In this document: piece after piece, positions 2,089 to 28,322 of the stretch
Layout of the letters: each line of letters begins with the position of its first letter
Position numbering within the stretch: position 1 is the first letter of the stretch
Source: Pseudorhodobacter turbinis
GTDB lineage: Bacteria; Pseudomonadota; Alphaproteobacteria; Rhodobacterales; Rhodobacteraceae
NCBI RefSeq assembly: GCF_005234135.1
Contig: NZ_CP039967.1
Span: 1-31,491, forward strand
Direction: 5' to 3'
DNA: 31,491 nt
Notes under the pieces: generated by a model
Database searches by the model: none
Told to the model about the DNA's origin: nothing
What the model saw: the letters and a program-made list of their open reading frames with translations, nothing else
Program-made: the position numbers and the translations under genes

Positions 2089-2331
2089 GACTGCTCCTGA
2101 TGTGCCGTATTTTGCCAGATATACCACAAAAGCGCGCACATGGAAGAAAAGAGATCACATCGCAGGGATTTCTAAGCAAACTATAGGGTATTGCGGGGTG
2201 AGAGGCTCGTATTTTTTCGTGTCGCCAAATCTTTTTTGGTTATTTATATGTTATTAGAAGGTTACAGGTTTTTTTAAGGTCGAATAAGTTGTTGGTAAAA
2301 AAAGGAAATCCGGCACCTTCAAAGCCTGCTG

Positions 2332-2403
2332 TGAATCTGAACCCCCGATAAGGCGACTCTGAACCCCCGCTGAAGCGACTCTGTTCCCCCGATAGGGCTT
2401 CTG
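2332..2403 (+). repeat. Three 22-bp iterons plus a partial fourth
   Basis: The related octamers TGAATCTG (2332), CGACTCTG (2354) and CGACTCTG (2376) recur at exactly 22 bp, each followed by A/T-A/T-CCCCCG and a variable tail (ATAAGG, CTGAAG, ATAGGG). A truncated fourth copy (CTTCTG) starts at 2398. These should be the binding sites of the RepA initiator and set copy number and incompatibility. Confidence 0.88.
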
Positions 2404-2412
2404 GACGCAAGC

Positions 2413-2421
2413 TGTGGATAA
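2413..2421 (-). promoter_or_regulatory. DnaA box
   Basis: TGTGGATAA on the plus strand is TTATCCACA on the minus strand, a perfect match to the DnaA box consensus TTATNCACA. It lies 9 bp after the last iteron, as expected for an origin that recruits host DnaA. Confidence 0.8.
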
Positions 2422-2541
2422 CTCTAGGGTGAGTGTCACTGAAACCCCGAAAGAATCGGGAGCCGTCGAAACTTGATCCGGGCATTGCAGCGCGGGGCAA
2501 GCAAAGGCAGGGAAAAGGGCGGCACTGCCGATGCGATTGTC

Positions 2542-6199: not shown

Positions 6200-6236
6200 A
6201 ATTGTTGCAGAACGTCTGCCGCAGGGGGAATCATAA

Positions 6237-7763: not shown

Positions 7764-7776
7764 ACACCAGATCACG

Positions 7777-7809: not shown

Positions 7810-7864
7810 TTTCGCGTCTTGATGTTCCAGACACTCGCCAAACCCGGAAGAGGGACAGCCTTTC

Positions 7865-8782: not shown

Positions 8783-8783
8783 G

Positions 8784-9686: not shown

Positions 9687-9690
9687 TGCC

Positions 9691-11684: not shown

Positions 11685-11702
11685 TCTTCAAGGAGCGATC
11701 AC

Positions 11703-15547: not shown

Positions 15548-16459
15548 ATGCCTGAAACCATCCAACCTGTTAAAGTTATTGCTGAAATTGGATGCAATCA
15601 TAAGGGTGATCTTGACCTTGCCAAAGAGCTGATCCGCGTTGCGGCGGCTATTTGCGGTGCTGATATTGCCAAGTTTCAAAAACGTCATAACCGCGAATTG
15701 ATGTCCAAAGAGCAATATGAAACGCCGCATCCGGTGTCGGCAAACTCATATGGTGATACTTACGGCGCACACCGCGAATTTCTTGAATTTGACAGCGACC
15801 AGCATAAAGAGCTGATCGAATGCTGCCGGGAGAATGGCATCGCCTATTCCACCAGCGTTTGGGATCTGACCTCGGCCAAAGAAATGGCTGCGTTGAATCC
15901 GCCCTTGCTGAAAATCCCTTCGGCCACAAACCAGCATTACGAATTGCAGGGCTATCTCTGTGAACATTATGCGGGTGAAATCCATGTATCGACCGGCATG
16001 TCCACGGGCGACGAGATTGCCAAGCTGATTGCCTTTTATGCCGAACGGGGGCGCGCCAAGGATCTGGTGGTCTATAGCTGCACCTCCGGATATCCGGTGG
16101 CGTTCGAGGATATCTGCCTATTCGAGATCCGCAACCTGATGGAAAAATTCGGCGCCACCGTTAAGGGGATCGGCTTTTCCGGTCACCACCTTGGCATTGC
16201 CGCAGATGTTGCCGCCCTGGCAATCGGCCGCACCATGCAGGCCGACGGAAAAGGCCGCTTCACCCATATCGAGCGGCACTTCACATTGGACCGGACCTGG
16301 AAAGGTACCGATCACGCCGCCAGCCTGGAACCCGACGGGCTGCGCCGTCTTTGCCGCGACCTGAAGAACGTCGATCGCGCGCTGACCTATAAGGGCCAAG
16401 AGGTTCTGCCTGTTGAACAAGTTCAGCGCGACAAGCTGAAATGGGTCAAATCCGCCTAA
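15548..16459 (+). CDS. NeuB-like nonulosonic (sialic) acid synthase, barrel only
   Basis: NeuB enzymes condense phosphoenolpyruvate with an N-acylmannosamine or a related 6-phosphate to make a nine-carbon acid. The TIM-barrel motifs are clear: IAEIGCNHKGDLDLAKEL near residues 12-29, AKFQ, KIPSATNQHYEL, STGMSTGDEI, YSCTSGYPVAFED, GFSGHHLGIAADVAALAIG (metal-binding His; usual SDH is SGH here) and IERHFTLDRTWKGTDHAASLEPDGL (second metal His). The protein stops at 303 aa, in the linker after the barrel (LPVEQVQRDKLKW), so the antifreeze-like SAF domain that helps bind the sugar in NeuB/NANS is absent. AAAAGGG precedes the ATG. It is convergent with the CMP-synthetase fusion, the stops overlapping by 4 bp. 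Sialic acid, KDN or another nonulosonate cannot be distinguished. Confidence 0.9.
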   Translation: MPETIQPVKVIAEIGCNHKGDLDLAKELIRVAAAICGADIAKFQKRHNRELMSKEQYETPHPVSANSYGDTYGAHREFLEFDSDQHKELIECCRENGIAYSTSVWDLTSAKEMAALNPPLLKIPSATNQHYELQGYLCEHYAGEIHVSTGMSTGDEIAKLIAFYAERGRAKDLVVYSCTSGYPVAFEDICLFEIRNLMEKFGATVKGIGFSGHHLGIAADVAALAIGRTMQADGKGRFTHIERHFTLDRTWKGTDHAASLEPDGLRRLCRDLKNVDRALTYKGQEVLPVEQVQRDKLKWVKSA

Positions 16460-17646
16460 CCGGGGTTGCGGCCTTGCGCCGCGACCAGCGTATCACAAAG
16501 ATGCCGCAGCGCCCCGCGTCCGCCGGGCTGCGGCAAGATCCATTGCGCGAGCCGCAAGATATCACCGTGCGCATCACTGGGGCAGGCTGACAGCCCCGCT
16601 TTGCGCATCGCCGCCGCATCATTGATGTCATTGCCGATATAGAGCATCTGCGACCACTCAAGCCCCTGTTCCATGAGCCAAAGATCAAGCGCCGCAACCT
16701 TGTCGTCAATGGCTGATTGCACCTCGATCCCCAGCTTGGCCGCCCGCGCCAGCACAACCGGATTACGCTCTTTGGAGACGATCAGCCGCTTGATATCCGT
16801 ATGCCAGGCCAGCTCTGCCAGTCCCATGCCATCCCCGCGCGAGGTGCGCACCGTTTCGCGCCCGTCCTGATCGGTCAGCACCATATTATCGGTATGCACC
16901 CCGTCAAAATCCATCACCAAGGCGCGAATGTTTTTCAAAGCTGCCGGATCAACGCCGTTTTGGTCAATGGATTGCGCCATGACGCTTGCCAGATCCAGAT
17001 CGGCAAGGCTGTCGATCTCCAAGGCGGGTTGATCCACCGGGCAAAGCGCAACGGTGCCGCAAAAGCGCTGGCCCGTGGCCTCAAAGGCGGCGGCATCCAC
17101 GCAATAGATCGCGCCATTTTCGCGGTACTGTGGCGGCAGGTCTTGCCGCCGTTTGCGTTGTTTGGTGTGGTCGTGGTTCTGGCCGATGCCGCGCCCCTGC
17201 GCGTCCAGCCCCCATAAAAAGCTGTGATCCTCTACCACCGACAGCGCACAGGCGGCCCCCGCCTCCAGCATCGCCTGCACACAGGCATCAATGTCGGACC
17301 CTTTGATAAAGGGCGATGTGCATTGCAAGAACACAAGCTGCCCAAGCTCTGGGAAATCGGCGCGGATCAGGGGCAGGGCATGCAACCACCCCGCCTCGGA
17401 GCTGGCCCCGTCACCGGACAGATCCGCAGGGCGGTCAATGATGCGCGCACCGTGCAGCCTGGCCTCATCCGCGATGGCGCGATCATCGGTCGAGACATAG
17501 ACCGCCGCCTGACTTTGGGCCTGTAGCCCCGCGCGCACCGCCCGCCCGATCAAGGAGACACCGCCCACGACCCGCAAGTTCTTGTGGGGCACCCCTTTGG
17601 AACCGCCACGGGCCAGGATCACTGTCGCAGATTGCGCGGATGACAT
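16456..17646 (-). CDS. Fusion: CMP-nonulosonate cytidylyltransferase + KdsC-like HAD phosphatase
   Basis: This is predicted to activate a nonulosonic acid with CTP and to remove a phosphate from the 9-phosphate precursor. Residues 7-228 are a NeuA-type transferase: VILARGGSKGVPHKNL (9-24), VYVSTDDRAIADEA (49-62), FLQCTSPF (106-113), RQDLPPQYRENGAIYCVD (167-184). Residues 240-390 are a KdsC-like HAD domain with intact catalytic D246 and D248 (MDFDGVHTDN), S291-K292 and GNDINDAAAM (338-347). The start at 17646 has GAGG about 7 bp upstream; another ATG at 17664 adds six residues. The order NeuA-HAD resembles animal CMP-sialate synthetases and the separate KDN enzymes of Bacteroides. The glycosyltransferase gene lies 75 bp upstream on the same strand. 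The stop overlaps the neuB-like stop by 4 bp. Confidence 0.9.
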   Translation of the reverse strand: MSSAQSATVILARGGSKGVPHKNLRVVGGVSLIGRAVRAGLQAQSQAAVYVSTDDRAIADEARLHGARIIDRPADLSGDGASSEAGWLHALPLIRADFPELGQLVFLQCTSPFIKGSDIDACVQAMLEAGAACALSVVEDHSFLWGLDAQGRGIGQNHDHTKQRKRRQDLPPQYRENGAIYCVDAAAFEATGQRFCGTVALCPVDQPALEIDSLADLDLASVMAQSIDQNGVDPAALKNIRALVMDFDGVHTDNMVLTDQDGRETVRTSRGDGMGLAELAWHTDIKRLIVSKERNPVVLARAAKLGIEVQSAIDDKVAALDLWLMEQGLEWSQMLYIGNDINDAAAMRKAGLSACPSDAHGDILRLAQWILPQPGGRGALRHLCDTLVAAQGRNPG

Positions 17647-17721
17647 ATTCGACCTCGATATCATTTGCGTGTTGTCAAAGATGTTTCACAGCTTGCCATG
17701 TCCTGCAATCCAAATCCCTGC

Positions 17722-18498
17722 TTAGCCCTTGGCGGTCAGGAACCGCCACGCATCCCGCCACCCACCCAAGTGTTTACGGTGGCGCAAGGCATAGGCCAGC
17801 AACACAGGCACCGCAGCCGAACCAAAGCAGCGCGACAACACCGCACGCCGCGCCACCAGCAGGCCCGCGTCATGCCAGTTATCCCCCGTAGACAGGTGCG
17901 GATGCGCCCCGGTGACAATTGGAAACGCCGCCCCGCACAGCCCCGCATCCAGCATGTCACAGGTAAAGATATAATCCTCTCCCACTGGGTATTCGGCCCC
18001 TACGCCAAAGCGCGTATCAAACGTTATGCCGTGGCGGCGCAGGGGGGCTACGCACACCATCAATTCAGGCGCGCAGATGCGCCCCGCATTCAGCTTGCGC
18101 AACCTATATGCCCCCGCACGCGGCCCCGTCACGGGCAGGCGCCCCGCCCTCCAACCGGCAGCAAAGGCCAGATCGGGCGCCCGTGCCAGTTCCGCCGCCA
18201 AAGCCTTTAGGCCTACGACATCCAATTCCATGTCGTCATCGGCAAACACCAGAAAGGGCGTCTCACATTGCGTCAAAGCGCTATTGCGGCTGTGTGACAG
18301 GCCACGCGTGTTTATCGCAGTATAGCGTAGATCCGGTCTGTCATTGATGGGCAACACGTCTGGCGGCATTTGCACCAGCACCTCATAGCGCAACCCATCC
18401 GTCGGCGCGGGCAGTATGATACCATTAATCCGCGCCCCAATCGTAGCGATCGCAACGGTGATACCCGATGGCAAAGAGGGGGTGATATCTGCGGTCAT
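17722..18498 (-). CDS. GT-A (family 2-like) glycosyltransferase
   Basis: This is a cytoplasmic transferase using an activated sugar to extend a glycan; donor and acceptor are unknown. The GT-A core is visible: TVAIATIGARINGI (14-27), LSHSRNSALTQC (67-78), the metal-binding acidic motif VFADDDMEL (84-92), and a later acidic VGEDYIFTCDMLDAG that fits the catalytic/acceptor region. The 258-aa length is modest. No membrane segment is evident. It heads a two-gene minus-strand unit with the NeuA-HAD fusion (75 bp apart), linking it to nonulosonate glycan synthesis. It is divergent from the next GT2 gene across 95 bp. The ATG has no clear ribosome binding site, and a promoter-like element lies only 7 bp before it, so the message may be leaderless. 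Confidence 0.85.
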   Translation of the reverse strand: MTADITPSLPSGITVAIATIGARINGIILPAPTDGLRYEVLVQMPPDVLPINDRPDLRYTAINTRGLSHSRNSALTQCETPFLVFADDDMELDVVGLKALAAELARAPDLAFAAGWRAGRLPVTGPRAGAYRLRKLNAGRICAPELMVCVAPLRRHGITFDTRFGVGAEYPVGEDYIFTCDMLDAGLCGAAFPIVTGAHPHLSTGDNWHDAGLLVARRAVLSRCFGSAAVPVLLAYALRHRKHLGGWRDAWRFLTAKG

Positions 18499-18505
18499 AT
18501 GCGCC

Positions 18506-18533
18506 AGTATCCAAGAAGCGCCCGAGCGGTCAA
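18506..18533 (-). promoter_or_regulatory. Putative promoter of the GT/NeuA-HAD unit
   Basis: On the minus strand TTGACC (18533-18528, 5/6) is followed after 16 bp by GATACT (18511-18506, 4/6). The -10 element ends 7 bp before the glycosyltransferase ATG at 18498, so transcription would begin at or near the start codon. Confidence 0.35.
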
Positions 18534-18593
18534 GGGCGATTGCCCTTGCAGCCCGGTCTGTGCCAGAAACACCGGAAAGAGACAGGAGGCAGG

Positions 18594-19349
18594 ATGACCG
18601 AAACCGCGAATTTTCCTGTAACAGTCTCTGTTATCACGCCTGCCCGCAATGCGGCCGATGTTCTGGCCCGTGCGGTTGCCAGCGTACAAGCCCAGACATT
18701 TGCGGATTGGGAGATGATCATCGTCGATGACGGCTCCTCGGATATGACCGCCGCGCTGGCCCAAACCCTTGCCCAAAGTGATCCGCGCTTGCAGGTTCTG
18801 TGCCATGCCACAGGCACGGGGGCGGCAAAGGCCCGCAACACCGCGATCAAAGCCGCGCGGGGCCGTTATATTGCTTTTCTGGATGCCGATGATGCTTGGG
18901 TACCGGAAAAACTGGCGCAACAACTGCGCGTGATGCGCGACCGGCAGGCGGGGCTAAGCTATACCGGTTTTATGCGTCTGTCGGCATCAGGGCAGCGGCA
19001 AGTGCAGGTACCAAAGCGCGTTACACGGGCTGAATTACTGCTGGGAAATTGCATCGGCTGTTCAACCGTGATCTATGATCGGGCCATGTTAGGCACTGTT
19101 TTGATGCCCGATCTGCCCATGCGACAGGATTATGCGCTGTGGCTAACGCTGCTGGCGCGGCTTCCTTATGCGGTGGGGGTCGATGCCCCTTTGGTCAGCC
19201 TTTACACCACCCCCGGATCGCTATCGTCAAACAAATGGCGGGCGATGCGGGCGACTTGGGCAATGCACCACCGGCATTTCGAAACTGGGCCGTTTCTATC
19301 GGCGTTATATGTGGCATCCCACACCCTGCGCAGGCTGCGGCGCGGGTGA
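18594..19349 (+). CDS. GT2 family glycosyltransferase
   Basis: This classical GT-A family 2 transferase has VSVITPARNAADVLARAVASV at the N-terminus (11-31 contains the nucleotide-binding start), ADWEMIIVDDGSSD (37-50), AKARNTAIKAARGRYIAFLDADDAW (78-102) with the DxD at D97-A-D99, and the later MRQDYALWLTLLA acceptor/catalytic segment. It has 251 aa and no clear membrane anchor. The frame is open further upstream, but the ATG at 18594 follows a perfect AGGAGG site, so I use that start. It is transcribed away from the other glycosyltransferase. A terminator-like hairpin follows 65 bp after its stop. Donor and acceptor are unknown; the context points to the capsule or other sialylated surface glycan. 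Confidence 0.92.
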   Translation: MTETANFPVTVSVITPARNAADVLARAVASVQAQTFADWEMIIVDDGSSDMTAALAQTLAQSDPRLQVLCHATGTGAAKARNTAIKAARGRYIAFLDADDAWVPEKLAQQLRVMRDRQAGLSYTGFMRLSASGQRQVQVPKRVTRAELLLGNCIGCSTVIYDRAMLGTVLMPDLPMRQDYALWLTLLARLPYAVGVDAPLVSLYTTPGSLSSNKWRAMRATWAMHHRHFETGPFLSALYVASHTLRRLRRG

Positions 19350-19413
19350 AGGGTGGCCCTTCATATGTCCCCGATTGATACTTGAGCGGTATTTGGCCGC
19401 ATGCTAGGTTCGA

Positions 19414-19441
19414 CAGACGCCTTCAGTCTGGCAATTTTTTT
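19414..19441 (+). terminator. Rho-independent-like terminator after the GT2 gene
   Basis: CAGAC (19414-19418), a 7-base loop and GTCTG (19426-19430) form a short stem, followed by GCAA and seven T residues (19435-19441). The stem is only 5 bp, but the T run and position support the call. Confidence 0.5.
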
Positions 19442-19540
19442 AAAAAGGTTCTCAAATACCTATAGTTTCCAACCTGTTCGGGCCATTGATGAAACTGGCC
19501 ACAACCATAAAGGCGCCTGAACACAGGTGATCGTTCAGAT

Positions 19541-20533
19541 ATGTTTGACAAAATACTCAAGCGATTGAAGCGCAAGGCGAGATCATTCTTTAAAGCAGAG
19601 CCTCCCCGCCCTGAAGTCAAACCAGCCGAGCCCGCCCCCCCAAAAACCAGACCCAAGCCGCCTGCCCCCAAGACCGAACCATCCAGCTTTGCGCCTTGGG
19701 TGGGCGCAGATACACCATGTCCCGCCTGTGGGGCACGCGCCACACATCAAAGCGATTACCCTTCGCGGGTGCAGCCATTTGCGTCCTGCACCATGCTTTA
19801 TTGTAGCGCCTGCGGCTTGGGCTTTGTGCCCGATATAAGCCGCGAAACACTGACCCAATACTACCAACAGGATTATGGCAGTTCCAACCGTGGTGACAGG
19901 CAAGTTGAGCCTGAACGGTATTTCCGAGAACAACTGGCAAGTAATAGCCCCGCCTTTAAACGATATACCACCCGGGCACAGCGCCAGATTGATCTGTTGA
20001 AAAAACATGGCGCCGCCTTGGAAAAGGTGCTCGATTACGGCAGTGGGCCAGGGTATTTCTTGCATGCCTGCAAGGCACCGCAAGCCAGCGCGGTCGAACC
20101 CGATGAACTAAGCCATAAATACCTGACCTATCTGGGTGCCACCATCCACAGTGATTTCCGCAGCCTGCCAAAGGCTGAATTCGACACTATTGTTGCCTCT
20201 CATTCCATCGAACACGTCCCCGCCGCAGATCTGCACGAAACCTTGACCGCCCTGATTTCGGCACTGAAGCCACAGGGGCGGTTGCTGATTGAAGTGCCAC
20301 AAGGCGGGCACAGCTATTTGCATCTGGCAGGCCACCGCCAAGACCCGCACACGCTGTTTTTCACCGGCCAAGCGCTTGTAGAGGCCTTGAAGGCCGCGGG
20401 GGCAGAGATTTTGTTTCAGCAAGCCATGAGTCGTGTGGACAGCCCCCGGCGCATAGATCCGATCTATACCGGCACGGGTGATCCCTTCTTTGAAACCGCG
20501 CGCGGGTCGCTGACGGTGATTTGCCGCCCCTAA
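19541..20533 (+). CDS. SAM-dependent methyltransferase with Pro/Lys-rich N-terminus and zinc ribbon
   Basis: Residues 1-50 start with a basic amphipathic stretch (MFDKILKRLKRKARSF) and continue as a proline-rich, probably disordered linker. Residues 60-91 hold a CxxC...CxxC zinc ribbon (C60, C63, C88, C91). Residues 160-310 form a class I methyltransferase fold: motif I VLDYGSGPGYFLHAC (163-177), acidic post-I VEPDE, and FDTIVASHSIEHVPAADLHETL with LLIEVPQGGHS. The zinc ribbon plus methyltransferase arrangement is known in sugar C- or O-methyltransferases of glycan clusters. A methylated residue in the surface glycan is therefore a fair guess. The gene is convergent with the sialyltransferase, the stops overlapping by 4 bp. 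Length is 330 aa. Confidence 0.88.
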   Translation: MFDKILKRLKRKARSFFKAEPPRPEVKPAEPAPPKTRPKPPAPKTEPSSFAPWVGADTPCPACGARATHQSDYPSRVQPFASCTMLYCSACGLGFVPDISRETLTQYYQQDYGSSNRGDRQVEPERYFREQLASNSPAFKRYTTRAQRQIDLLKKHGAALEKVLDYGSGPGYFLHACKAPQASAVEPDELSHKYLTYLGATIHSDFRSLPKAEFDTIVASHSIEHVPAADLHETLTALISALKPQGRLLIEVPQGGHSYLHLAGHRQDPHTLFFTGQALVEALKAAGAEILFQQAMSRVDSPRRIDPIYTGTGDPFFETARGSLTVICRP

Positions 20534-21318
20534 CCTTTCGGCCCCCCCCAAACGCGGCGCAACCGTCGCAAAAGCTTTAGCGCCGCGATCGGATAAAGCC
20601 CCGCCCAAGAAGCCCAATCTGTCGGCGGGGTGGTCGGCACAATATCAGGGCCCGCCCCCTGCCGGTTTTCGGCCAAATCCATCACCGCATCCAGCCTTGA
20701 CCCAGAGGTCGTGCGCCGCAATGCACCGCCCGTATGCTCTTGCACCAATGTCAGGATCTCCAGATCCAGATCGATGTTATGCTGCCGTATATCCAGCCCG
20801 CGATAGTTCAGATCCTGCCCCAAAAGCGCGCTTTGGTTCTTGCCGGCATCATAGCTGTAACGTTTCTGGCTGTCGTAGAAATCGATCCCCGTCAGAATGA
20901 TCCTGCCCGCCCCCTGACCATAGGCGGCCAGCACCGCATAGGTGCCAGTCATAGGCTTACAGCCATAGCACGCGATCAAACCCTGCACCTGCGCCGCCAG
21001 CCCGTCATCGCCATAGCAAAGCGGCTGGAACAATGCCCCGAAACGGCGGCGACCAGCACGGATCACGGCCGGGTTATGGCTGGTCCACGCCCGCAAATCA
21101 TAGGTGCCGCGACACTGCCACAGGGTCTCGAACATGAAAGGCGCGACCCTTGGATCACCGCCCATCACGGCCAGATCCACACGGCGGCCTAAAAAGCTTT
21201 GGGGTTCAAAAAAGAAGTTATTGCTGCGCACCATGAAATCACTGGCAAGGATGCTGCCTGCGGTCGGATGTGCGATTGAGGTGCCGTTGCCTGCAACAAC
21301 ATAGGTGGGGCCCGTCAT
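20530..21318 (-). CDS. GT42 (CstII-like) sialyltransferase
   Basis: This is predicted to transfer a nonulosonic acid from its CMP form to a glycan acceptor. From memory of Campylobacter CstII the two align along most of their length. YVVAGNGTSI at residues 6-15 matches IIAGNGPSL, FMVRSNNFFFEPQSFLGRR (28-46) matches FDVFRCNQFYFEDKYYLGKK, ILTGIDFYDSQKRYSYDA (141-158) matches YLSGIDFYQNGSSYAFD, and H180 in RQHNIDLDLEIL sits where CstII has its catalytic His188. N33 matches CstII Asn31. The CstII Arg129 position appears to be K121. The 262-aa length is close to the family's. It is convergent with the methyltransferase gene and divergent from the small-protein gene 150 bp away. Together with the NeuB-like and NeuA-HAD genes it completes a make-activate-transfer route. 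Confidence 0.86.
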   Translation of the reverse strand: MTGPTYVVAGNGTSIAHPTAGSILASDFMVRSNNFFFEPQSFLGRRVDLAVMGGDPRVAPFMFETLWQCRGTYDLRAWTSHNPAVIRAGRRRFGALFQPLCYGDDGLAAQVQGLIACYGCKPMTGTYAVLAAYGQGAGRIILTGIDFYDSQKRYSYDAGKNQSALLGQDLNYRGLDIRQHNIDLDLEILTLVQEHTGGALRRTTSGSRLDAVMDLAENRQGAGPDIVPTTPPTDWASWAGLYPIAALKLLRRLRRVWGGPKG

Positions 21319-21467: not shown

Positions 21468-21671
21468 ATGTTTGACCGTATAAAGAAAATGTATGTTGGC
21501 AAAGTTATATACCGGATAGCCCGCCTTCCGGTTATCGGCGTTCCGGTCCTTATTCTGTCACGCTTCGTGCAGTATGAAATCTTTCAGATCGTGCATCTTT
21601 TGCCGTCCAACATTGCCCATAACAAACGTGCCCGCACGGCATTGGAAGAGTTCGAGGCAAAGCTGAAATGA
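21468..21671 (+). CDS. Small basic/hydrophobic protein, unknown function
   Basis: This is a 67-residue protein that I do not recognise. It begins with a basic segment (MFDRIKKMYVGKVIYR), continues with a hydrophobic or amphipathic stretch at about 18-45 (PVIGVPVLILSRFVQYEIF inside), and ends charged (RARTALEEFEAKLK). I consider it real because a strong purine-rich AAAGGGGG site precedes the ATG and its stop overlaps the next gene's start by 4 bp (ATGA), which implies translational coupling. It could be a peripheral membrane anchor or partner for the putative glycosyltransferase that follows. Its opening MFDRIKK echoes the basic start MFDKILK of the methyltransferase, though this may be chance. 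Confidence 0.7.
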   Translation: MFDRIKKMYVGKVIYRIARLPVIGVPVLILSRFVQYEIFQIVHLLPSNIAHNKRARTALEEFEAKLK

Positions 21672-22795
21672 ACATCCCCCAAGACCAATATCCAGCAGCC
21701 GACCCCAACGCCAGAAAACCAGTAATTGTGCTGTTTAGTGACGATTCAACGCTGATTTTTGCGCAACGTATGCGGGCCGCACTTTTGGCCGCCGATCCCG
21801 ATTGCCCTGTCCAGATGACATGGTTCGCGGATGAAAGCGTGCTCTCTTACCGCCAGATATCACAGCTGTTGCCCGAAGGTCCCAGCAGGATCGTTACGCG
21901 CCAAGACCTGATCGCCTTGATGCAGGATCCCGATGTCTCGGCCATTCTGACCAGCCGGATTTACCGTGCCATGCTTGCCCGGCTCAAAAACCCTGTGGCG
22001 CGCTGGTCGGGCAACCGGCCCTGTGTTGTCAGCTTTCTGGGCGGGCTGGACTTCTTTCCTGAGCAAGGCTTCATGCGCCGCCTGCATTGTGACGGGGTCT
22101 ATTTGTTTCCACGTGGGGCGATCAAGGACTACAACGCCTTGGCCGCCGATCTGGATGCAGGCTGGCAGGATGTCGGTTTTGGGCACCCCTCGGCCCTGCT
22201 GCCGCAAGGGGCACCTGCGGATCTGGATCAACGCCGTGATATCTTCTTTTTTACCCAAGCGCTTAGCCCCTCCACGAAGCGCGGGCGGATACATATGCTG
22301 CGGATGATGGCCGCCATTGCGCGCGCCAATCCTGACCGCAAAGTGTTTATCAAACTGCGCCATCTGCCCAATGAGAACCGCAAACACCTGCATCTGGAAC
22401 GCTATGACTACCCCTCACTGATGAAGGCTTTGGGGACGGTTCCCGAAAACCTGCACCTGACCGATATCACCATGGAAAAGGCGCTGGAAACGGCCGCCCT
22501 TGGCATCACCTGCACCTCCACGGCTGCCATAGACCTGCTGCGCGCGGGGCTGCCCTCTATGGTCCATCTTGATTATGTCGATGCCTACCGCGACCCATTG
22601 GTCGAACCGATGCGCCGCCTGTTTGCAAACAGCAACCTGATCACCCCGACAGAGCGCGTTCTGACGCTGGACCCCCCTTCCCCCGATCCGCGCTGGATGG
22701 AGGATATGTTCTGTCCCCGCGATCTGGGCACCCGCGTGCTGGATACTGTGGCGCGGTTCCATGACCGGGAATTCCAGATCCGCCAGACCCTTTAA
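21668..22795 (+). CDS. Putative GT-B-like glycosyltransferase of unknown specificity
   Basis: This 375-aa soluble protein resembles poorly characterised glycan-cluster proteins with a GT-B-like outline. The N-terminal half opens with a Rossmann-like strand (VIVLFSDDSTLIFAQRM). A middle segment reads PCVVSFLGGLDFFPEQGF. The C-terminal half holds KVFIKLRHLPNENRKHLHLE and, most tellingly, LGITCTSTAAIDLLRAGLPSMVHLDY, the nucleotide-sugar or acceptor loop pattern seen in several GT-B enzymes (S/T-S-T..DLL..G.P). It may belong to a DUF6716-like family, but I cannot confirm this. It is coupled to the upstream small gene by ATGA overlap. It runs into kpsM from the opposite side with a 4-bp stop overlap. 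Context suggests a transferase for the exported glycan. Confidence 0.68.
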   Translation: MNIPQDQYPAADPNARKPVIVLFSDDSTLIFAQRMRAALLAADPDCPVQMTWFADESVLSYRQISQLLPEGPSRIVTRQDLIALMQDPDVSAILTSRIYRAMLARLKNPVARWSGNRPCVVSFLGGLDFFPEQGFMRRLHCDGVYLFPRGAIKDYNALAADLDAGWQDVGFGHPSALLPQGAPADLDQRRDIFFFTQALSPSTKRGRIHMLRMMAAIARANPDRKVFIKLRHLPNENRKHLHLERYDYPSLMKALGTVPENLHLTDITMEKALETAALGITCTSTAAIDLLRAGLPSMVHLDYVDAYRDPLVEPMRRLFANSNLITPTERVLTLDPPSPDPRWMEDMFCPRDLGTRVLDTVARFHDREFQIRQTL

Positions 22796-23637
22796 AGGTA
22801 CAAAATGCTGCGCCCGTATTTGCGCAGCAGCAACACACCGAAAAAGGCCGGGATCAACCCGCAAGCAAGCACGAAAGGGATGCTGATATAAGACGGGCTA
22901 TAGGTTGAATAAAACCCCATGCGCGACAGCCCGATGATATGCACCAACGGGTTGAACCAAAGGTACTCTTGCGCAAAAAGTGGCGTATCCTCATAAAGAT
23001 AAAGCACCGCCGAGATCAGGATGATCGGGCCCGTTGCGATCCCCCAGATCAGCCGCCAAACTGGCATAAGCGTGAACAAGAAACAGTTGAACGTGCCGAT
23101 ACCTATCCCCAGAACGATTGCCAGAGCATAGCTTTCAATGATGATCTCATAGGTATTGATGGCGCTGCTATGTGTCCACAGATTGACGGCAGTAAAGATA
23201 ATCAGCGACACGGTGAACTGCGTCAAGGCCGTCAAAATCGCCCGCCCCAGGATCGCATCGACAAAGGTCACGCGTGGATAGCCCAACAAGGGTTTGCTGA
23301 ATTGCAACGCCCCGCCCACATTGATCGACAGGGTTTGAAACATGCGCAGCGGCATCAAGCCCGTGGCATAAAACAGGATAAAATCGGTGCCCAAAGGCGG
23401 GCTGCGCAGCAGCATGGAAAATGCCAATGACAGCACCACAATCAGCGCGACCGGCTGTGCCACCGCCCAAAAATACCCCCCCGGAGAGCGCCCGTAGGTG
23501 GTCGCCATCTCCCGGATGATCAACGCCGTAACCGCCCGCCCTGTACGGTAGTGCAGCTTGGGCACTGCCGCCGGCCGGATTGCAGATATCCCTGCATTTT
23601 CTAAGGGCGGTTTGGTCATTGCTGCACCATGGCTCAT
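22792..23637 (-). CDS. kpsM: Capsular polysaccharide ABC exporter permease, KpsM/CtrC type
   Basis: This is the inner-membrane subunit of an ABC-2 exporter that moves lipid-linked capsule polymer out of the cytoplasm. It has a cytoplasmic N-terminus (HYRTGRAVTALIIREMATTYGRSPGGYFWA, the family opening) and then about six membrane segments, including VAQPVALIVVLSLAFSML and the long AIVLGIGIGTFNCFLFTLMPV. The end, WFNPLVHIIGLSRMGFYSTY, is typical of KpsM-like proteins. From the ATG at 23637 it is 281 aa; the ATG at 23619 would give 275. Neither has a good ribosome binding site, and the frame extends open to 23784. It is divergent from kpsE (49 bp between starts) and convergent with the upstream glycosyltransferase, so it is not co-transcribed with its ATPase partner, which is unusual. 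Confidence 0.9.
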   Translation of the reverse strand: MSHGAAMTKPPLENAGISAIRPAAVPKLHYRTGRAVTALIIREMATTYGRSPGGYFWAVAQPVALIVVLSLAFSMLLRSPPLGTDFILFYATGLMPLRMFQTLSINVGGALQFSKPLLGYPRVTFVDAILGRAILTALTQFTVSLIIFTAVNLWTHSSAINTYEIIIESYALAIVLGIGIGTFNCFLFTLMPVWRLIWGIATGPIILISAVLYLYEDTPLFAQEYLWFNPLVHIIGLSRMGFYSTYSPSYISIPFVLACGLIPAFFGVLLLRKYGRSILYL

Positions 23638-23686
23638 GTTATACAAATACGAAACCAGTATATCTGAATTTAGGCCGGAAACTGCA

Positions 23687-24886
23687 ATGACATCTTCTTC
23701 TGCGTCGCCGCAACCATCTGGCAAGCCAGCCCCCCCCCAAAAACCGAAAACACCCGTTCCCCCGGTTGCAGGCCCTGCCCGCATGAAGAAACGCCATTAC
23801 GGGCTGATCCTAAGCTTTATCATCCTCGTTCTGCTGCCGATGGGCGGCGTTGGCGGCTATCTTTATCAGGTCGCCAAGGACCAATATGTCTCCAAAATCG
23901 GCTTTACCGTGCGCCGCGAAGAGGCGCCTTTGGTATCGACCCTGATCAGCTCTTTGGGGCAGGTCTCATCCGCCTCCTCCAGCGATAGTGACATATTGTT
24001 CGAATTTGTCCGCTCGCAAGAGCTGGTGCAACGTATTGATGCGCAGCTGGATTTGCGCCGCCTCTATGCCGTAAATCACGACGCGGATCCAGTCTTCAGC
24101 CTGCGCCCCGGCGCCACGATTGAGGAACTGGTAGATTACTGGCAGAAAATGGTCCGGGTGTCCTATGCGCCCGGCACCGGCCTGTTGGAGCTGGAAGTGC
24201 GGGCCTTTGACCCCGCCACCGTCAACCGGATCGCCACGCTGATATTTTCCGAAAGCTCGGAGATGATCAACCAGCTGTCCAGCATCGCGCGTGAGGATGC
24301 CACACGCTATGCCCGCGAGGATCTGAGCAAGGCCGAGATTGCCCTCAAGAACATTCGCGCCACATTGACCCGGTTCCGCCTGCGCACCCAGATTGTGGAC
24401 CCGCAAGCCGCCATTCAGGGCCAGATGGGTTTGCTCAATTCCTTGCAGCAACAATTGGGCGAGGCGCTGATTGAATTTGACCTGATGGGGCAAAACACCC
24501 GCGAAAACGACCCGCGGCTGACCCAGATTTCCAGCCGGATCAGCGCCATCGAGGCCCGCATCAAGCAAGAGCGCCAACAGTTCGGACAGGGCGGGAATAT
24601 CGCCGACGGACAAAACTATGCCACCGTGGTTGCCGAGTTTGAACGGCTGATCGTGGACCGTGAATTTGCCGAACAGCAATATGCAACCGCACTTGCCAGT
24701 TTCGACCGCGCCCAGACCGAGGCGCAACGCCAGAGCCGCTATCTGGCGGCCTATGTCGGCCCGACCATGGCCGAAAGCGCCGAACATCCACGCCGGATGC
24801 TTTTGTTTTTGCTCTGCGCGTTCTTTGCGACAATCAGCTGGGCCATTCTTGCCTTGGTCTTTTATTCCTTGCGGGACCGCCGGTAG
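23687..24886 (+). CDS. kpsE: Capsule export inner-membrane/periplasmic protein, KpsE/CtrB type
   Basis: This polysaccharide co-polymerase-like protein spans the periplasm and links the ABC exporter to the outer-membrane channel. It has a Pro/Lys-rich cytoplasmic tail (1-35), a first membrane segment at about 38-61 (YGLILSFIILVLLPMGGVGGYLY), a periplasmic domain with long coiled-coil stretches (for example ARYAREDLSKAEIALKN-like and SRISAIEARIKQERQQFG regions), and a second membrane segment near the C-terminus (MLLFLLCAFFATISWAILALVF). The 399-aa length matches KpsE/BexC/CtrB. The open frame extends upstream to 23558, but the ATG at 23687 gives the normal family opening and avoids overlap with kpsM. 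kpsT follows after 9 bp. Confidence 0.9.
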   Translation: MTSSSASPQPSGKPAPPQKPKTPVPPVAGPARMKKRHYGLILSFIILVLLPMGGVGGYLYQVAKDQYVSKIGFTVRREEAPLVSTLISSLGQVSSASSSDSDILFEFVRSQELVQRIDAQLDLRRLYAVNHDADPVFSLRPGATIEELVDYWQKMVRVSYAPGTGLLELEVRAFDPATVNRIATLIFSESSEMINQLSSIAREDATRYAREDLSKAEIALKNIRATLTRFRLRTQIVDPQAAIQGQMGLLNSLQQQLGEALIEFDLMGQNTRENDPRLTQISSRISAIEARIKQERQQFGQGGNIADGQNYATVVAEFERLIVDREFAEQQYATALASFDRAQTEAQRQSRYLAAYVGPTMAESAEHPRRMLLFLLCAFFATISWAILALVFYSLRDRR

Positions 24887-24895
24887 GGGCCACCC

Positions 24896-25558
24896 ATGAT
24901 AGAGCTGCGCAACCTGACCAAAAGCTTTCCCACCCGCTGGGGGCGCAAATATGTGCTCAAAGACGTCAACCTGACCTTTCCAGCAGGCATGTCTGTGGCC
25001 TTGATGGGGCGCAACGGGGCCGGCAAATCGACGTTGCTGCAAATCATCGCCGGCAATATGAACCCGGATTCCGGCCAGATGATCACCCGTGGATCGCTGT
25101 CTTTTCCGGTCGGCTTTGCCGGCAGTTTCCACCGCGATCTAAGCGGTGCGCAAAACACCCGTTTCATTGCCCGCATCTATGGGATCGACACTAAGGAACT
25201 TACTGATTTCGTGCAGGAATTCACCGCCTTGGGCCGGAATTTCTATTTGCCGGTGCGGGGCTATTCCTCGGGCATGAAGGCGCGTCTGGCCTTTGGTGTG
25301 TCGATGGGCATCCAGTTTGATACCTATCTGGTGGATGAGGTTACTTCCGTCGGCGACCGCGCCTTTCGCACCCGCAGTGCCGAGGTGTTCAAGGACCGGA
25401 TGGCCCATTCCGGCGCCGTGGTGGTGACCCATTCCATCCCCGAAATGCGCAATCTGTGTCAGGCTGGCGTTGTGCTGGAAAACGGTCATGCGCGGTTTTA
25501 CGACGACATCGAAGAGGCCTTGGATGTCCATATCCGGACCATGGATAACTCCAAGTAA
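24896..25558 (+). CDS. kpsT: Capsular polysaccharide ABC exporter ATPase, KpsT/CtrD type
   Basis: This ATPase powers capsule export with KpsM. It is short (220 aa), as usual for KpsT, and has Walker A GRNGAGKST near residues 39-47. The family segment SFPVGFAGSFHRDLSGAQNTRFIARIYG follows. The signature YSSGMKARLAFG, Walker B TYLVDEVTSVGD and the H-loop VVVTHSIPEM are intact. There is no long C-terminal carbohydrate-binding extension, which separates it from the Wzt O-antigen type. It lies 9 bp after kpsE, with TAGGGG serving as ribosome binding site, so the two form an operon. The outer-membrane KpsD and the Kdo-linker enzymes KpsC/KpsS are absent from the plasmid. Confidence 0.93.
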   Translation: MIELRNLTKSFPTRWGRKYVLKDVNLTFPAGMSVALMGRNGAGKSTLLQIIAGNMNPDSGQMITRGSLSFPVGFAGSFHRDLSGAQNTRFIARIYGIDTKELTDFVQEFTALGRNFYLPVRGYSSGMKARLAFGVSMGIQFDTYLVDEVTSVGDRAFRTRSAEVFKDRMAHSGAVVVTHSIPEMRNLCQAGVVLENGHARFYDDIEEALDVHIRTMDNSK

Positions 25559-25676
25559 AGATCTATTTTAAAGCTTCTGTAAAAACGGCAGCATTGTCCA
25601 CCATCCCAACACAATACAGCCACCCTAACTGCATGACAGTGGTGCAAATTATCCTCGGGATATCTTGGGGGATATT

Positions 25677-28208
25677 GTGGGTAAGATCATTAGCGCATCG
25701 CGCATATCATGGGATAACGACGGTGCAGATGCGGAAGGGCCGGTACAGGGCGCAACGCAACCGTGGTTTGAAATAGACGGTAGTGCCAAGGATGGCATTG
25801 AGTTCCTGCTGCATGCCGGGCGGGGTCTGTGGGCGGGGGCCTTCAGCCTGTCAAACGGCACAATACAGCATAACAGCACGACCTATACCGCGGACAGCTT
25901 TGTCCAGCTCGGCTCGGCACGAGTCGTGCGCGATCTGTTTGATGTACTGGAACGCGACAGCACAGGGCAAACCGCCACATCGCGCGGCTATTTCTCGGGG
26001 CAGTCGGGGCAGGCCGGTGATGCAGGGCAACTGTTGCTGACACAGGTGGGTGGCCTTACACTGGCGGTCGCTGCATTGCCCGGACAAGCGGGGCTTTCAA
26101 CCTTTGAATACAGCCCCGGCACGCAGCCCGTTCTGCGCGATACCCTTGGCGACAGTGATACGCTTTATCTGGCTGACCCCGTGGGGCTGGCCAGTGTTAC
26201 GCTTGACGGGGATACCTATGTCTACGCTGCATCCTCAAGCGAACCGGGGATCAGCGCATTCCAGCTGAGCGCCACAGGAAAGCTGACCGAGGTCGGGACC
26301 TTGACGATCGAGGACGGGCTATGGGTGTCTAACACCACCAATATCGTCTCTGTTACGGCGGCAGGGCAGCCATTTTTGCTGGTCTCGGCCGCAGGCAGCA
26401 ATTCCCTATCGGTCGTAAAGCCCGGCCCTGACGGCCAGATGGTGGTCGTGGATCATATGCTTGATGATCTAAGCATGCGCTTTGACGATGCCACCTTGAT
26501 GGAAACGCTGGTGGTCGGTGACCGCACCTATATCGCGGTCAGCGGCAGTGATAACGGGATTAGCCTGTTTTCGCTTTTGCCGAACGGGCAACTGCTGCAC
26601 CTTGAAACACTGGAAGATACACAAACGCTGGGGCTGGACAGCCTCAGCGCATTGTCTTTAAGCGCACAAAGCGGCCTGATACATCTGGTTGCAAGCTCCG
26701 AAACCGAAGCGGGCCTGACCCATATCGTTTACGATCCGGGTGAAGGGTTGCAGCTTGCGGGCAAGAACGGAGGCGCCGCCCTGACCGGCGGTGCGGCCGA
26801 TGATATCTTGCTGGACGGCGACGGCGAGGACCAGCTGACCGGCGGCGCGGGTGCCGATTTGTTTGTGCTGCAAGCCGACGGCAAAAAAGACACCATCACC
26901 GACTTTCAGATCGCGACCGACCGCATTGATGTCAGCGCATGGAAGGGCCTGTATTCGACATTGCAGCTTAACGTCGTCAGCCAGTCTTATGGTGTCGACA
27001 TCCGCTATGGCGACGAGCTGCTGATCCTGCGGTCCGCCAATGGCAGCCGTCTTAGCCTTGACGACCTGCTGGATATTGATGTGCTGGGCATTGCCAGACT
27101 GTCCCCGCCTTCCCCACCCGCCGGAATAGAGCTGGATTTCCAAGGCACCGATGATGACGATTCCATGGAGAGCGACGCAAACGACAACACTTTGTGGGGC
27201 CTCGCCGGCGACGACAGCCTTTTCGGCTGGGACGGCAACGATACATTATTCGGCGGCGACGACAGCGATATGCTGTTTGGCGGTTATGGCAACGATATCC
27301 TCGATGGCGGTGCAGGGCATGACGTGCTTCGGGGCGGCGAGGGCCATGATGCGCTTTACGGTGGGACGGGCGCAGATAGCCTTTATGGAGAGGGTGGCGA
27401 TGATGCGCTTTGGGGCGATAGCTCCACCGATGTCCTATATGGCGGCAACGGCAATGATACGCTGACAGGCGGCACGGGCGCAGACACGCTTTATGGTGGC
27501 GACGGCGACGACCGGCTCTTGTCCAACACCGGCGTTGATCTGCTTTATGGTGGGGCCGGAGACGATTGGATCAGCCCCGGCAATGGGGCCGATCTTGCCT
27601 ATGGCGGTAGCGGCAATGACACGATCATCGGGCGCACCGGCTGGGATACGCTTTATGGCGGCGAAGGCGATGACGAGCTTTACGGCAGCGAAGGCGTGGA
27701 TCTTCTATATGGTGATGCTGGGGATGATTTCCTGTCGGGCGGCTTTGGCTATGATGAGATTTATGGCGGCGACGGCAATGACGAAATCTATGGCAACATC
27801 GGCAATGATGACCTTTATGGCGGGGCCGGTAATGACGCGCTTTATGGCGCCACAGGGGATGATCTTTTGGAGGGCGGCGATGGCGACGACGTGCTTTACG
27901 GCGCACAAGGGGTGGACACGCTGATCGGCGGCGCGGGCAATGACTTTTTGCGCGGCGGCACGCTGGCCGATACCTTCATCTTTGATCGCGGCCATGATCA
28001 GGACACGATCTCGGGGCTGGAAACCCAGGACGAGATATACCTGTCCACGGAGTTGACCGGCGGGCTAACGGATGCGGCCGATATCGTGGCCCGTTTCCGG
28101 ACAGAGGTCGACGGGCAGTTAGCGCTATCTTTTGATCAAGGTGACATGATCATCTTTGATGAAGACCTCAGCAGCGCCGAGCTGATCGAAACGATCTTTA
28201 CGTTCTGA
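25677..28208 (+). CDS. Large secreted RTX calcium-binding protein with beta-propeller-like N-terminal part
   Basis: This is predicted to leave the cell through a type I secretion system and fold on calcium, as adhesins and matrix proteins do. The start is probably GTG 25677 (GGGGGA 6 bp upstream, 843 aa); TTG 25665 is an alternative. Residues of about 55-365 show repeated WD/lactonase-like blades (LADPVGLASVTLDGDTYVYAAS, AGQPFLLVSAAGSNSLSV, VGDRTYIAVSGSDNGISLF). A first short RTX patch is near 370-400 (GAADDILLDGDGEDQLTGGAGADLF, as on M10-type C-domains). An uninterrupted block of 29 nonapeptides occupies residues 506-766. The acidic C-terminus ends in the hydrophobic ETIFTF, as type I signals often do. 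There is no N-terminal signal peptide. No secretion ATPase, adaptor or TolC is on the plasmid. It follows kpsT by about 118 bp. Confidence 0.9.
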   Translation: MGKIISASRISWDNDGADAEGPVQGATQPWFEIDGSAKDGIEFLLHAGRGLWAGAFSLSNGTIQHNSTTYTADSFVQLGSARVVRDLFDVLERDSTGQTATSRGYFSGQSGQAGDAGQLLLTQVGGLTLAVAALPGQAGLSTFEYSPGTQPVLRDTLGDSDTLYLADPVGLASVTLDGDTYVYAASSSEPGISAFQLSATGKLTEVGTLTIEDGLWVSNTTNIVSVTAAGQPFLLVSAAGSNSLSVVKPGPDGQMVVVDHMLDDLSMRFDDATLMETLVVGDRTYIAVSGSDNGISLFSLLPNGQLLHLETLEDTQTLGLDSLSALSLSAQSGLIHLVASSETEAGLTHIVYDPGEGLQLAGKNGGAALTGGAADDILLDGDGEDQLTGGAGADLFVLQADGKKDTITDFQIATDRIDVSAWKGLYSTLQLNVVSQSYGVDIRYGDELLILRSANGSRLSLDDLLDIDVLGIARLSPPSPPAGIELDFQGTDDDDSMESDANDNTLWGLAGDDSLFGWDGNDTLFGGDDSDMLFGGYGNDILDGGAGHDVLRGGEGHDALYGGTGADSLYGEGGDDALWGDSSTDVLYGGNGNDTLTGGTGADTLYGGDGDDRLLSNTGVDLLYGGAGDDWISPGNGADLAYGGSGNDTIIGRTGWDTLYGGEGDDELYGSEGVDLLYGDAGDDFLSGGFGYDEIYGGDGNDEIYGNIGNDDLYGGAGNDALYGATGDDLLEGGDGDDVLYGAQGVDTLIGGAGNDFLRGGTLADTFIFDRGHDQDTISGLETQDEIYLSTELTGGLTDAADIVARFRTEVDGQLALSFDQGDMIIFDEDLSSAELIETIFTF
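27192..27974 (+). repeat. Block of 29 in-register 27-bp RTX repeats
   Basis: Twenty-nine nine-residue repeats of the LxGGxGxDx type run without any insertion. Examples are LFGGYGNDI, LYGGNGNDT and LYGGAGNDA. In the second half complete repeats alternate with degenerate ones (LYGGEGDDE then LYGSEGVDL; LYGGDGDDR then LLSNTGVDL), giving an 18-residue, 54-bp higher-order unit. Confidence 0.9.
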
Positions 28209-28247: not shown

Positions 28248-28268
28248 CATGGCAATTGAATTGCCATG
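28248..28268. promoter_or_regulatory. 21-bp palindrome upstream of glmM, possible operator
   Basis: CATGGCAATT (28248-28257), a single central G, and AATTGCCATG (28259-28268) form perfect 10-bp arms. It lies between the RTX gene stop (28208) and the glmM ATG (28323). No T run follows, so an operator is more likely than a terminator. The protein that would bind it is unknown. Confidence 0.5.
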
Positions 28269-28322
28269 GCTGAAATTGTAGGAGGACGCATCGCGATAGC
28301 AGCACCCACGGGAAGGAATGAC

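Follow-up and report, generated by a model that had tools for sequence, protein, structure and literature searches.

Gene content of the plasmid

The window, meaning the whole 31,491-base alphaproteobacterial stretch analysed here, is an entire contig (C4), and the presence of a RepA-type initiator together with ParA marks it as a plasmid, in agreement with the location claimed in an earlier note on this DNA. Three core genes, encoding a NeuB-like synthase, a CMP-transferase/phosphatase fusion and a GT42 transferase, were named in that note, and all three are confirmed by profile matches and have open frames (Table 1). They do not form one operon, as neuB is on the plus strand and the other two are on the minus strand. 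The fusion gene converges with neuB, the two 3' ends overlapping by 4 bases, and is separated from the GT42 gene by two glycosyltransferase-like genes and one methyltransferase gene.

The further glycosyltransferases and the capsule exporter described beside the core are also present, comprising two GT2-type genes (one a weak match), a DUF6716 gene and KpsM-, KpsE- and KpsT-like genes. The divergent GT2-like gene occurs in 15 and the DUF6716 gene in 28 of 30 module loci, the window counted in both. KpsM and KpsE are homologous to Kps proteins, yet both score below the curated cut-offs; the true start of the former probably lies inside its ORF and that of the latter downstream of the TTG. The nucleotide-sugar dehydrogenase probably supplies UDP-glucuronate for the same glycan, and ManC/PMI is the predicted source of mannose-6-phosphate (Man-6-P).

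Table 1. Features of the 31,491-base window, with coordinates, strand and supporting matches
Feature	Coordinates	Strand	Basis
ParA and RepA-type initiator (partition/replication)	700..3561	ParA -, RepA +	PF13614 3.8e-29; PF10134 1.3e-96
Bifunctional mannose-1-P guanylyltransferase/mannose-6-P isomerase (ManC/PMI)	3793..5241	+	TIGR01479 576.9 bits, over 372.95
SAF-less NeuB-family synthase, 303 aa, predicted Kdn-9-phosphate synthase	15548..16459	+	PF03102, clade, metal/PEP columns
CMP-nonulosonate synthetase/HAD phosphatase fusion, 402 aa	16456..17664	-	PF02348; HAD domain
Divergent GT2-like glycosyltransferase	17722..18498	-	PF00535 E 0.0015, 19 bits, below cut-off 23.3
GT2 glycosyltransferase, TuaG-like	18540..19349	+	PF00535 6.7e-34; NF047683 217.9 bits, below cut-off 400
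Methyltransferase, possibly acting on a glycan sugar	19541..20533	+	PF13489 1e-17
GT42 sialyltransferase-like, 262 aa	20530..21318	-	PF06002, Cst-II fold, aligned residues
DUF6716 putative GT-B glycosyltransferase	21668..22795	+	PF20471 2.2e-33; GT-B-type fold model, pLDDT 91.4
KpsM-like capsule ABC permease	22792..23784	-	NF050053 6.3e-19, 68.9 bits, below cut-off 300
KpsE-like export protein	23558..24886	+	TIGR01010 4.4e-63, 213.5 bits, below cut-off 437.5
KpsT-like ATPase	24896..25558	+	PF00005 7e-16; TagH/Wzt-type NCBIfam matches below cut-off
RTX calcium-binding protein adjoining the exporter	25665..28208	+	PF00353 3.6e-69
GlmM-type hexosamine phosphomutase	28266..29663	+	TIGR01455 617.8 bits, over 447.55
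Nucleotide-sugar dehydrogenase	29745..31073	+	TIGR03026 469.1 bits, over 189.8

The three core enzymes

Searches against the NeuB, NeuA and GT42 families, suggested in the earlier note, gave matches above the cut-off in each case. The synthase matches PF03102 with an E-value of 1.1e-61 (208.8 bits, cut-off 22.1), and no match to the C-terminal SAF domain of classical NeuB/PseI was found in it by Pfam at E<=1, whereas the chromosomal NeuB of the same host has this domain (6.8e-12). Its scores are below the cut-offs of the equivalogs NeuB_NnaB (TIGR03569, 182.6 bits against 399.65) and pseudaminic acid synthase PseI (TIGR03586, 132.1 bits against 340.25), and the SAF-bearing chromosomal NeuB (339.4 bits) is below the TIGR03569 cut-off as well. 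In the tree the SAF-less synthases form their own clade (100/98), with SAF absence established by Pfam for the window, S. meliloti, Maritalea and Nonomuraea proteins and from the C-termini for 13 tree rows. Alignment with Nm NeuB revealed conservation of E25, K53, Q55, K129, H215, E234, H236 and D247, columns that serve metal and PEP binding. Two columns differ, E134 being changed to T and F112 to W; these changes were counted against Kdn as the product.

The CMP-transferase half of the fusion matches PF02348 at residues 14-187 (E 8.9e-16, 58.8 bits, cut-off 22.6), its best score being with PseF (91.1, cut-off 205.7). The HAD half, of the KdsC/KDN-9-P-phosphatase type, occupies residues ~243-399, and D252, D254, S297, K298, G344, N345, D346 and D349 are invariant in 19 aligned sequences. 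It scores 84.8 with KdsC, slightly above the 79.8 bits with the KDN-9-P phosphatase equivalog NF058599 (cut-off 180), both far below cut-off, and the KdsC (Kdo-8-P phosphatase) family TIGR01670 gives 77.9 bits, below its cut-off of 106.95.

For the transferase, placement outside GT42 had been set beforehand as the outcome that would count against the first interpretation. The protein lies inside the family, both by PF06002 (CST-I; E 4.4e-10, 39.9 bits, cut-off 25) and by its predicted fold (pLDDT 93.0), for which Foldseek returned 16 chains with E<=0.001, all of them Cst-I, Cst-II or a Pasteurella enzyme (E from 9.6e-14, for Cst-II, to 1.2e-10). H188, Y156 and Y162 of Cst-II, which have catalytic roles, correspond in the alignment to H180, Y148 and Y154, with H180 and Y154 invariant and Y148 conserved in at least 90% of 29 aligned sequences. 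The GT42 assignment thus holds, and sialyl transfer from a CMP-sugar is predicted from profile and model.

Co-inheritance, mobility and integrity of the module

Among 295 genomes of the family, each representing one genus, the same five contain all three genes; in a sixth, G194, the only match is a NeuB of 39% identity. Among named genomes carrying GT42, 28 of 28 have a window-type synthase (77-90% identity), and in all 28 loci the GT42 gene is preceded by the fusion gene at a distance of 0-60 nt, measured between aligned ends; on p4 of T. mobilis the distance is 54 nt. In Sinorhizobium, Ensifer, Billgrantia and Pelagibacterium, neuB immediately precedes the fusion gene, and a single ORF of Nonomuraea contains CMP-transferase, HAD and NeuB regions, with blastp covering the window fusion to residue 391. 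S. fredii CCBAU 25509 encodes both a window-type NeuB (71.5%) and the fusion (46.9%). Since sequence, fold, strict co-inheritance, gene fusion and conserved catalytic residues all point the same way, the earlier proposal that the cassette makes, activates and attaches a nonulosonic acid is well supported as a prediction; its second part, on plasmid mobility, fared differently.

A Pfam scan took 29 window ORFs from 98 ORFs of at least 90 aa, many of them overlapping, and no relaxase or conjugation protein was found among the 29, so that transfer of the trait by this plasmid is not supported. The five plasmid records bearing GT42 all have the type non-mobilizable; two come from Pasteurella and encode a distant enzyme. 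Nine plasmid records carry a window-type synthase, two typed conjugative and one mobilizable, and the rows beyond Tritonibacter, Marinovum and Maritalea are all rhizobial megaplasmids. Because the module is also present in rhizobia and in the gammaproteobacterium Billgrantia, its spread over evolutionary time is likely.

An AGE-family gene comes after the GT42 gene in 27 of 30 loci and is missing from the window and from loci L034 and L045. Where it is missing, a mannose-phosphate enzyme is encoded: ManC/PMI in the window, a PMI-domain gene in the L045 cluster and ManC elsewhere in the L034 genome. This missing gene, together with the separation of the fusion and GT42 genes, which sets the window apart from 29 other loci, could indicate a decayed or silent plasmid remnant whose intact genes make no sugar. 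Such a remnant is highly improbable, as the three frames are open, the GT42, HAD and metal/PEP residues are kept and ManC can stand in for AGE as a source of Man-6-P.

The candidate sugar and its relation to known pathways

The earlier note did not say which sugar is made; the evidence favours Kdn, formed through phosphorylated intermediates. The cassette thus appears to encode the synthesis of a sugar of the sialic-acid type, probably this rare form without nitrogen, for a surface polysaccharide. In the proposed route, ManC/PMI would convert fructose-6-P to Man-6-P, which the SAF-less NeuB would condense with PEP to Kdn-9-P; the HAD half of the fusion would dephosphorylate Kdn-9-P and the other half would form CMP-Kdn. 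GT42 may then add Kdn to a polysaccharide made by the adjoining GT2 and DUF6716 enzymes, for export by KpsMTE. Family membership, catalytic residues and co-inheritance come from sequence and fold, and from them we infer substrate identity, step order and target glycan; the pathway as a whole is held with moderate confidence. The full set (Man-6-P source, synthase, phosphatase and CMP-synthetase) is encoded at the level of domains. A phosphorylated intermediate is indicated by the invariant HAD catalytic residues, and mannose is favoured over ManNAc because, among the 28 carriers, NeuC is over cut-off in one (one more below cut-off) and NanE in four, whereas ManC/PMI is over cut-off in 26. The AGE-family gene common in the loci also speaks for mannose, one such protein being 34% identical to an S. 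meliloti gene that carries the annotation 'pmi: mannose-6-phosphate isomerase Pmi'. Absences among these carriers are soft, since several are, by their titles, MAGs of unstated completeness, and ManC presence is weak evidence because ManC also serves GDP-mannose. Kdn-glycoconjugates are known from S. fredii SVQ293, a different strain from the one compared here, and from Streptomyces, as excerpted in PMC7845648, and Serratia capsules with neuA/neuB contain KDN over Neu5Ac at ~20:1, according to an excerpt of PMC9000132.

The same enzymes could instead yield Neu5Ac if the synthase acts on ManNAc-6-P or ManNAc, which in most relatives the AGE-family enzyme would form from GlcNAc and which here would come through the chromosomal NeuC. 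No NeuC was found among the 29 scanned window ORFs, but the host chromosome encodes one over cut-off (344.8 against 235.9) as well as the SAF-bearing NeuB, and the host may therefore have ManNAc at its disposal. For the AGE-family gene, GlcNAc 2-epimerase is a possible identity, as the Pfam name of PF07221 and the annotation of the Marinovum copy have it; the match to NF052547 is weak (33 bits, cut-off 600), and in the PDB it matches cellobiose 2-epimerases best. Kdn is not singled out by the profile scores, and GT42 relatives with solved structures are sialyltransferases, including one whose name specifies CMP-Neu5Ac. Synthase specificity can be loose, the human enzyme making both Neu5Ac and Kdn (PMC7845648, in excerpt), and for Leptospira a route resembling that of animals, through Neu5Ac-9-P and with a phosphatase fusion, has been proposed (PMC3438082, in excerpt). 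Neu5Ac is nevertheless unlikely, given the scarcity of NeuC and NanE in module genomes and the two genomes, those of L034 and L045, in which no PF07221, NeuC or NanE match was found.

Another ulosonic acid, such as an O-methylated or acetylated Kdn or one made from a different aldose phosphate, is improbable. It would account for the methyltransferase gene between the fusion and GT42 genes and for the 10-residue insertion and substitutions relative to classical NeuB, and 5-O-methyl-Kdn from S. fredii appears in a reference title within the excerpt of PMC7845648. The methyltransferase is nevertheless present in only four of 30 module loci (the window, L034, L035 and L045), placing it outside the core, and the metal- and PEP-site residues are those of ordinary NeuB.

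If Kdn is the product, the NeuB/fusion pair would allow Kdn producers among Rhodobacterales, rhizobia and actinomycetes to be recognised from sequence, and would supply candidate genes for the Sinorhizobium fredii Kdn polysaccharide. One bacterium would then hold two nonulosonate pathways, NeuC-dependent on the chromosome and through a 9-phosphate on the plasmid, and database labels, for instance 'N-acetylneuraminate synthase' and 'N-acyl-D-glucosamine 2-epimerase', would be corrected. At its widest, the proposal would have a small plasmid lead from fructose-6-P to an exported Kdn polysaccharide via the fusion and SAF-less Kdn-9-P synthases of a clade that had gone unrecognised, marine roseobacter carriers thereby wearing the same rare sialic acid as reported from haptophyte algae; this whole is quite unlikely, and the idea that such carriers would resemble algae at their surface in the phycosphere is speculation.

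The bacterial NeuC-NeuB-NeuA-sialyltransferase capsule pathway of the Neisseria and E. coli K1 type has in common with the window a PEP-dependent NeuB-family synthase, a CMP-transferase, a dedicated sialyltransferase and an ABC capsule exporter. Different from that type, the window has no NeuC in the scanned ORFs, a synthase lacking SAF and a CMP-transferase fused to a phosphatase. Its GT42 shares the fold and aligned catalytic residues with Cst-I/Cst-II of Campylobacter and the Pasteurella enzyme 9c08, at 15-21% identity in the structure match. Animal NANS has a SAF domain, unlike the window synthase, and the C-terminal domain of vertebrate CMAS is inactive, in contrast to the intact HAD residues of the window fusion. 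The animal NANS-NANP-CMAS route has the 9-phosphate intermediate in common with the proposed pathway, and CMAS with a C-terminal domain occurs in vertebrates and some bacteria, as excerpted in PMC13214540.

Few bacterial Kdn genes were found in the literature searched. In Serratia marcescens KL1/KL2, neuA and neuB lie in the capsule locus and KDN is in the capsule, but NeuB has an extra sugar-phosphate isomerase/epimerase domain, unlike the window synthase; the word phosphatase is absent from the text of PMC9000132, and its excerpt does not mention GT42. The route from Man-6-P and PEP through Kdn-9-P and Kdn to CMP-Kdn is, as proposed here, that of Bacteroides thetaiotaomicron and the haptophyte Prymnesium parvum, for which the excerpt of PMC6200933 mentions no linked GT42 or capsule exporter. 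According to the same excerpt, the Kdn-9-P phosphatase was used as a separate protein for B. thetaiotaomicron and was not found in P. parvum, whereas in the window it would be fused to the CMP-transferase.

Plasmid and gene layout

The host genome comprises four contigs (4.25 Mb), one of which, C4 with 31,491 bases, is the window in full. It encodes a RepA-type replication initiator and ParA, which identify the contig as a plasmid on gene content; its ends were checked for overlap and none was found. The earlier note had recognized a NeuB-like synthase, a CMP-transferase/phosphatase fusion and a GT42 transferase, and all three frames are open within the range it gave. They are spread over two strands rather than forming a single operon: neuB and the fusion gene are convergent with a 4-base overlap, and a divergent GT2-like gene, a GT2 gene and a methyltransferase gene separate the fusion from GT42. 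Past GT42 follow DUF6716, KpsM-, KpsE- and KpsT-like genes, an RTX protein, a mutase and a nucleotide-sugar dehydrogenase, while a bifunctional mannose-1-P guanylyltransferase/mannose-6-P isomerase (ManC/PMI) is encoded near the replication genes. The mutase is of GlmM type by NCBIfam (617.8 bits, above cut-off) and not a phosphomannomutase.

Features of the plasmid window and of related loci
Feature	Coordinates	Strand	Remark
IclR regulator, dipeptide-type ABC importer, gamma-glutamyltranspeptidase, M20 peptidase	window 5294-14662		separate cassette, probably for peptide uptake and unrelated to the three genes
Short tyrosine recombinase ORF (201 aa)	window 14831-15436		directly before neuB; 79-83% DNA identity to integrases of Roseobacter and Octadecabacter plasmids
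NeuB-family synthase	window 15548-16459	+	open frame
10-residue insertion in synthase	window 16238-16267		ahead of IERHF motif
CMP-transferase/HAD fusion	window 16456-17664	-	open frame
Methyltransferase	window 19541-20533		
GT42	window 20530-21318	-	open frame
RTX protein	window 25665-28208		adjoins exporter; matches in 16/30 module loci including window (E 1e-10), some possibly repeat matches only
Phosphohexomutase	window 28266-29663		
Pseudaminic acid genes pseB, pseC, pseF, pseI (by annotation)	L003:4416-18132		T. mobilis p4, beside module
Second nonulosonate locus of host	L004:9534-15478		chromosome (contig C1)
GT42 domain followed by GT8 domain in one protein	L048:12475-14145		S. meliloti pSymB; neighbours NeuB, fusion, DUF6716
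CMP-transferase, HAD and NeuB regions in one ORF	L052:7836-10028		Nonomuraea gerenzanensis

The three enzymes

In a profile search the product of the transferase gene scored 39.9 bits with PF06002 (cut-off 25). It lies within GT42, as the earlier note had proposed, and the outcome outside GT42 that the note had named as refuting did not arise. Its predicted model (mean pLDDT 93.0, pTM 0.91, 29 sequences) resembles Cst-II (Foldseek E 9.6e-14, TM 0.71), and all 16 chains at E<=0.001 are Cst-I, Cst-II or the Pasteurella enzyme. H180, Y148 and Y154 align with the catalytic residues H188, Y156 and Y162 of Cst-II; among 29 aligned sequences H180 and Y154 never vary, and Y148 reaches at least 90% conservation. 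The family is already annotated, since public records give the name alpha-2,3-sialyltransferase to several of the 120 listed relatives (129 found by protein search).

The first half of the fusion matches CMP-sialic acid synthetases and the second half KdsC/KDN-9-P-type HAD phosphatases, with no NCBIfam cut-off reached (KdsC 84.8/208, KDN-9-P phosphatase 79.8/180, PseF 91.1/205.7). Residues D252, D254, S297, K298, G344, N345, D346 and D349 of the HAD half are invariant in 19 aligned sequences, a pattern that favours a functional phosphatase.

As a NeuB, the synthase is atypical. It matched PF03102 strongly and fell below the NCBIfam cut-offs for both NeuB and PseI, and the Pfam scan found no SAF domain, in contrast to the host chromosomal NeuB (SAF, 6.8e-12). 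Of the functional positions of N. meningitidis NeuB, E25, K53, Q55, K129, H215, E234, H236 and D247 are kept, while E134 is replaced by T and F112 by W. The 10-residue insertion may contribute to a phosphate site. GKG lies within it in all six aligned SAF-less rows, Maritalea has GVG there, and the Nonomuraea NeuB region is without the insertion. In a tree of 21 rows, where long branches meet and the Nonomuraea row is long, all 13 rows that lack SAF at their end share one side of a branch (support 100/98), and the host chromosomal NeuB pairs with N. meningitidis NeuB (100/99).

Co-inheritance and mobility

The three genes travel together. In a family survey of 295 genomes, one per genus (GT42 E<=1e-10, fusion E<=1e-30, synthase E<=1e-40), GT42 and the fusion occur in the identical five genomes, a coincidence with a chance of 1 in 1.8e10 if genera are independent, which they are not quite; the synthase is present in the same five (77-100% identity), and a sixth genome, G194, has it at 39%. 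Scanning named genomes, including that of Phaeobacter sp. B1627 (G307, locus L031), yielded 28 GT42 loci, most of them from Rhodobacterales judging by title, besides Pelagibacterium and Billgrantia, a gammaproteobacterium. The host's family includes Phaeobacter, as its member G293 and G307 show an identical match at identical coordinates. In 28/28 the fusion ends 0-60 nt before GT42 (aligned ends) on the same strand, and all 28 carrier genomes have this synthase at 77-90% identity. T. mobilis p4 is arranged alike, with the fusion 54 nt before GT42; among the 30 module loci (these 28, p4 and the window), the two genes are split only in the window. DUF6716 is found in 28/30, and an AGE-family gene (PF07221) in 27/30, missing from the window, L034 and the Billgrantia locus L045. 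Homologues of the window methyltransferase occur in L034 and L045, and also in L035, which has the AGE gene; the cases are few.

Megaplasmids of Sinorhizobium, Ensifer and Rhizobium carry NeuB at 69.5-71.7% and the fusion at 46.1-47.1% identity, which in S. meliloti adjoin DUF6716 and a GT42-GT8 fusion. The single Nonomuraea ORF, without SAF, aligned with the window fusion over residues 15-391 (45%) and with the window NeuB over residues 6-300 (35%), its Pfam HAD match being below cut-off. PF02348 and PF03102 are both present in the best 120 of at least 6,482 homologues (649-712 aa), those listed coming from Nonomuraea, Streptosporangium and kin, with the HAD Pfam domain given for part only. 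This gene fusion ties the CMP-transferase, HAD and NeuB steps together.

Regarding mobility, no relaxase or transfer protein was detected by Pfam among the 29 window ORFs scanned. This GT42 occurs in three plasmid records from alphaproteobacteria, those of T. mobilis p4, Marinovum algicola and Maritalea, all typed non-mobilizable, and among nine plasmid records with the synthase two are conjugative and one mobilizable. In three relatives the module lies on contigs of 0.8-1.0 Mb and is likely chromosomal.

Identity of the sugar

Since the CMP-synthetase is joined to a phosphatase, the product is implied to be a 9-phosphate and hence the substrate a 6-phosphate, either Man-6-P (giving Kdn) or ManNAc-6-P (giving Neu5Ac). 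NeuC scored above cut-off in 1/28 carrier genomes and below it in one more, NanE was found in 4/28, and 22/28 matched neither. ManC/PMI was above cut-off in 26/28, the others showing a partial match (G302) or the PMI end only (G321).

The AGE-family gene could be a substrate source in its own right. The family bears the Pfam name GlcNAc 2-epimerase, one module copy is annotated N-acyl-D-glucosamine 2-epimerase, and most of the PDB matches are to cellobiose 2-epimerases. When one copy was searched against plasmids, 64 records matched; among the 25 listed, module copies came first, and outside the module an S. meliloti gene (34%) carries the annotation 'pmi: mannose-6-phosphate isomerase Pmi'. 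Each locus without the AGE gene has another Man-6-P source encoded: ManC/PMI on the same plasmid for the window, a PMI-domain protein inside the Billgrantia cluster (PF01050, 1.2e-24), and ManC elsewhere in the L034 genome. PF07221 gave no match in the L034 and L045 genomes, and the host genome contains one such gene, which is unlinked and shares ~26% identity with a module copy across 227 columns.

Three points count against Kdn: the host has NeuC on its chromosome, the profile scores are ambiguous, and synthases of this sort are known to be loose, as with the human one, which produces both Neu5Ac and Kdn according to passages of PMC7845648. Kdn nevertheless is most likely the product. The chromosomal locus of the host, which encodes a hexapeptide acetyltransferase, SAF-bearing NeuB, NeuC (above cut-off), two WaaA-like Kdo transferases and a CMP-transferase, possibly serves the LPS core.

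The haptophyte E. huxleyi reportedly has a Kdn-linked sphingolipid (passages of PMC6200933) and its blooms are rich in roseobacters (passages of PMC5371807); mimicry of the alga by Kdn-bearing roseobacters is only an idea. The earlier note's observation is confirmed, and its interpretation, a compact plasmid-borne sialic-type pathway with glycan attachment and plasmid spread, is borne out in part.

In favour of Kdn, glycoconjugates containing it are reported from S. fredii SVQ293 and Streptomyces in passages of PMC7845648, and passages of PMC9000132 report a Serratia neuA/neuB locus that gives KDN capsules. The pathway is of a known kind, that of bacterial nonulosonic acids, and its combination of SAF-less synthase, synthetase-phosphatase fusion, GT42 and a probable PMI-type supply is a variant not previously known.
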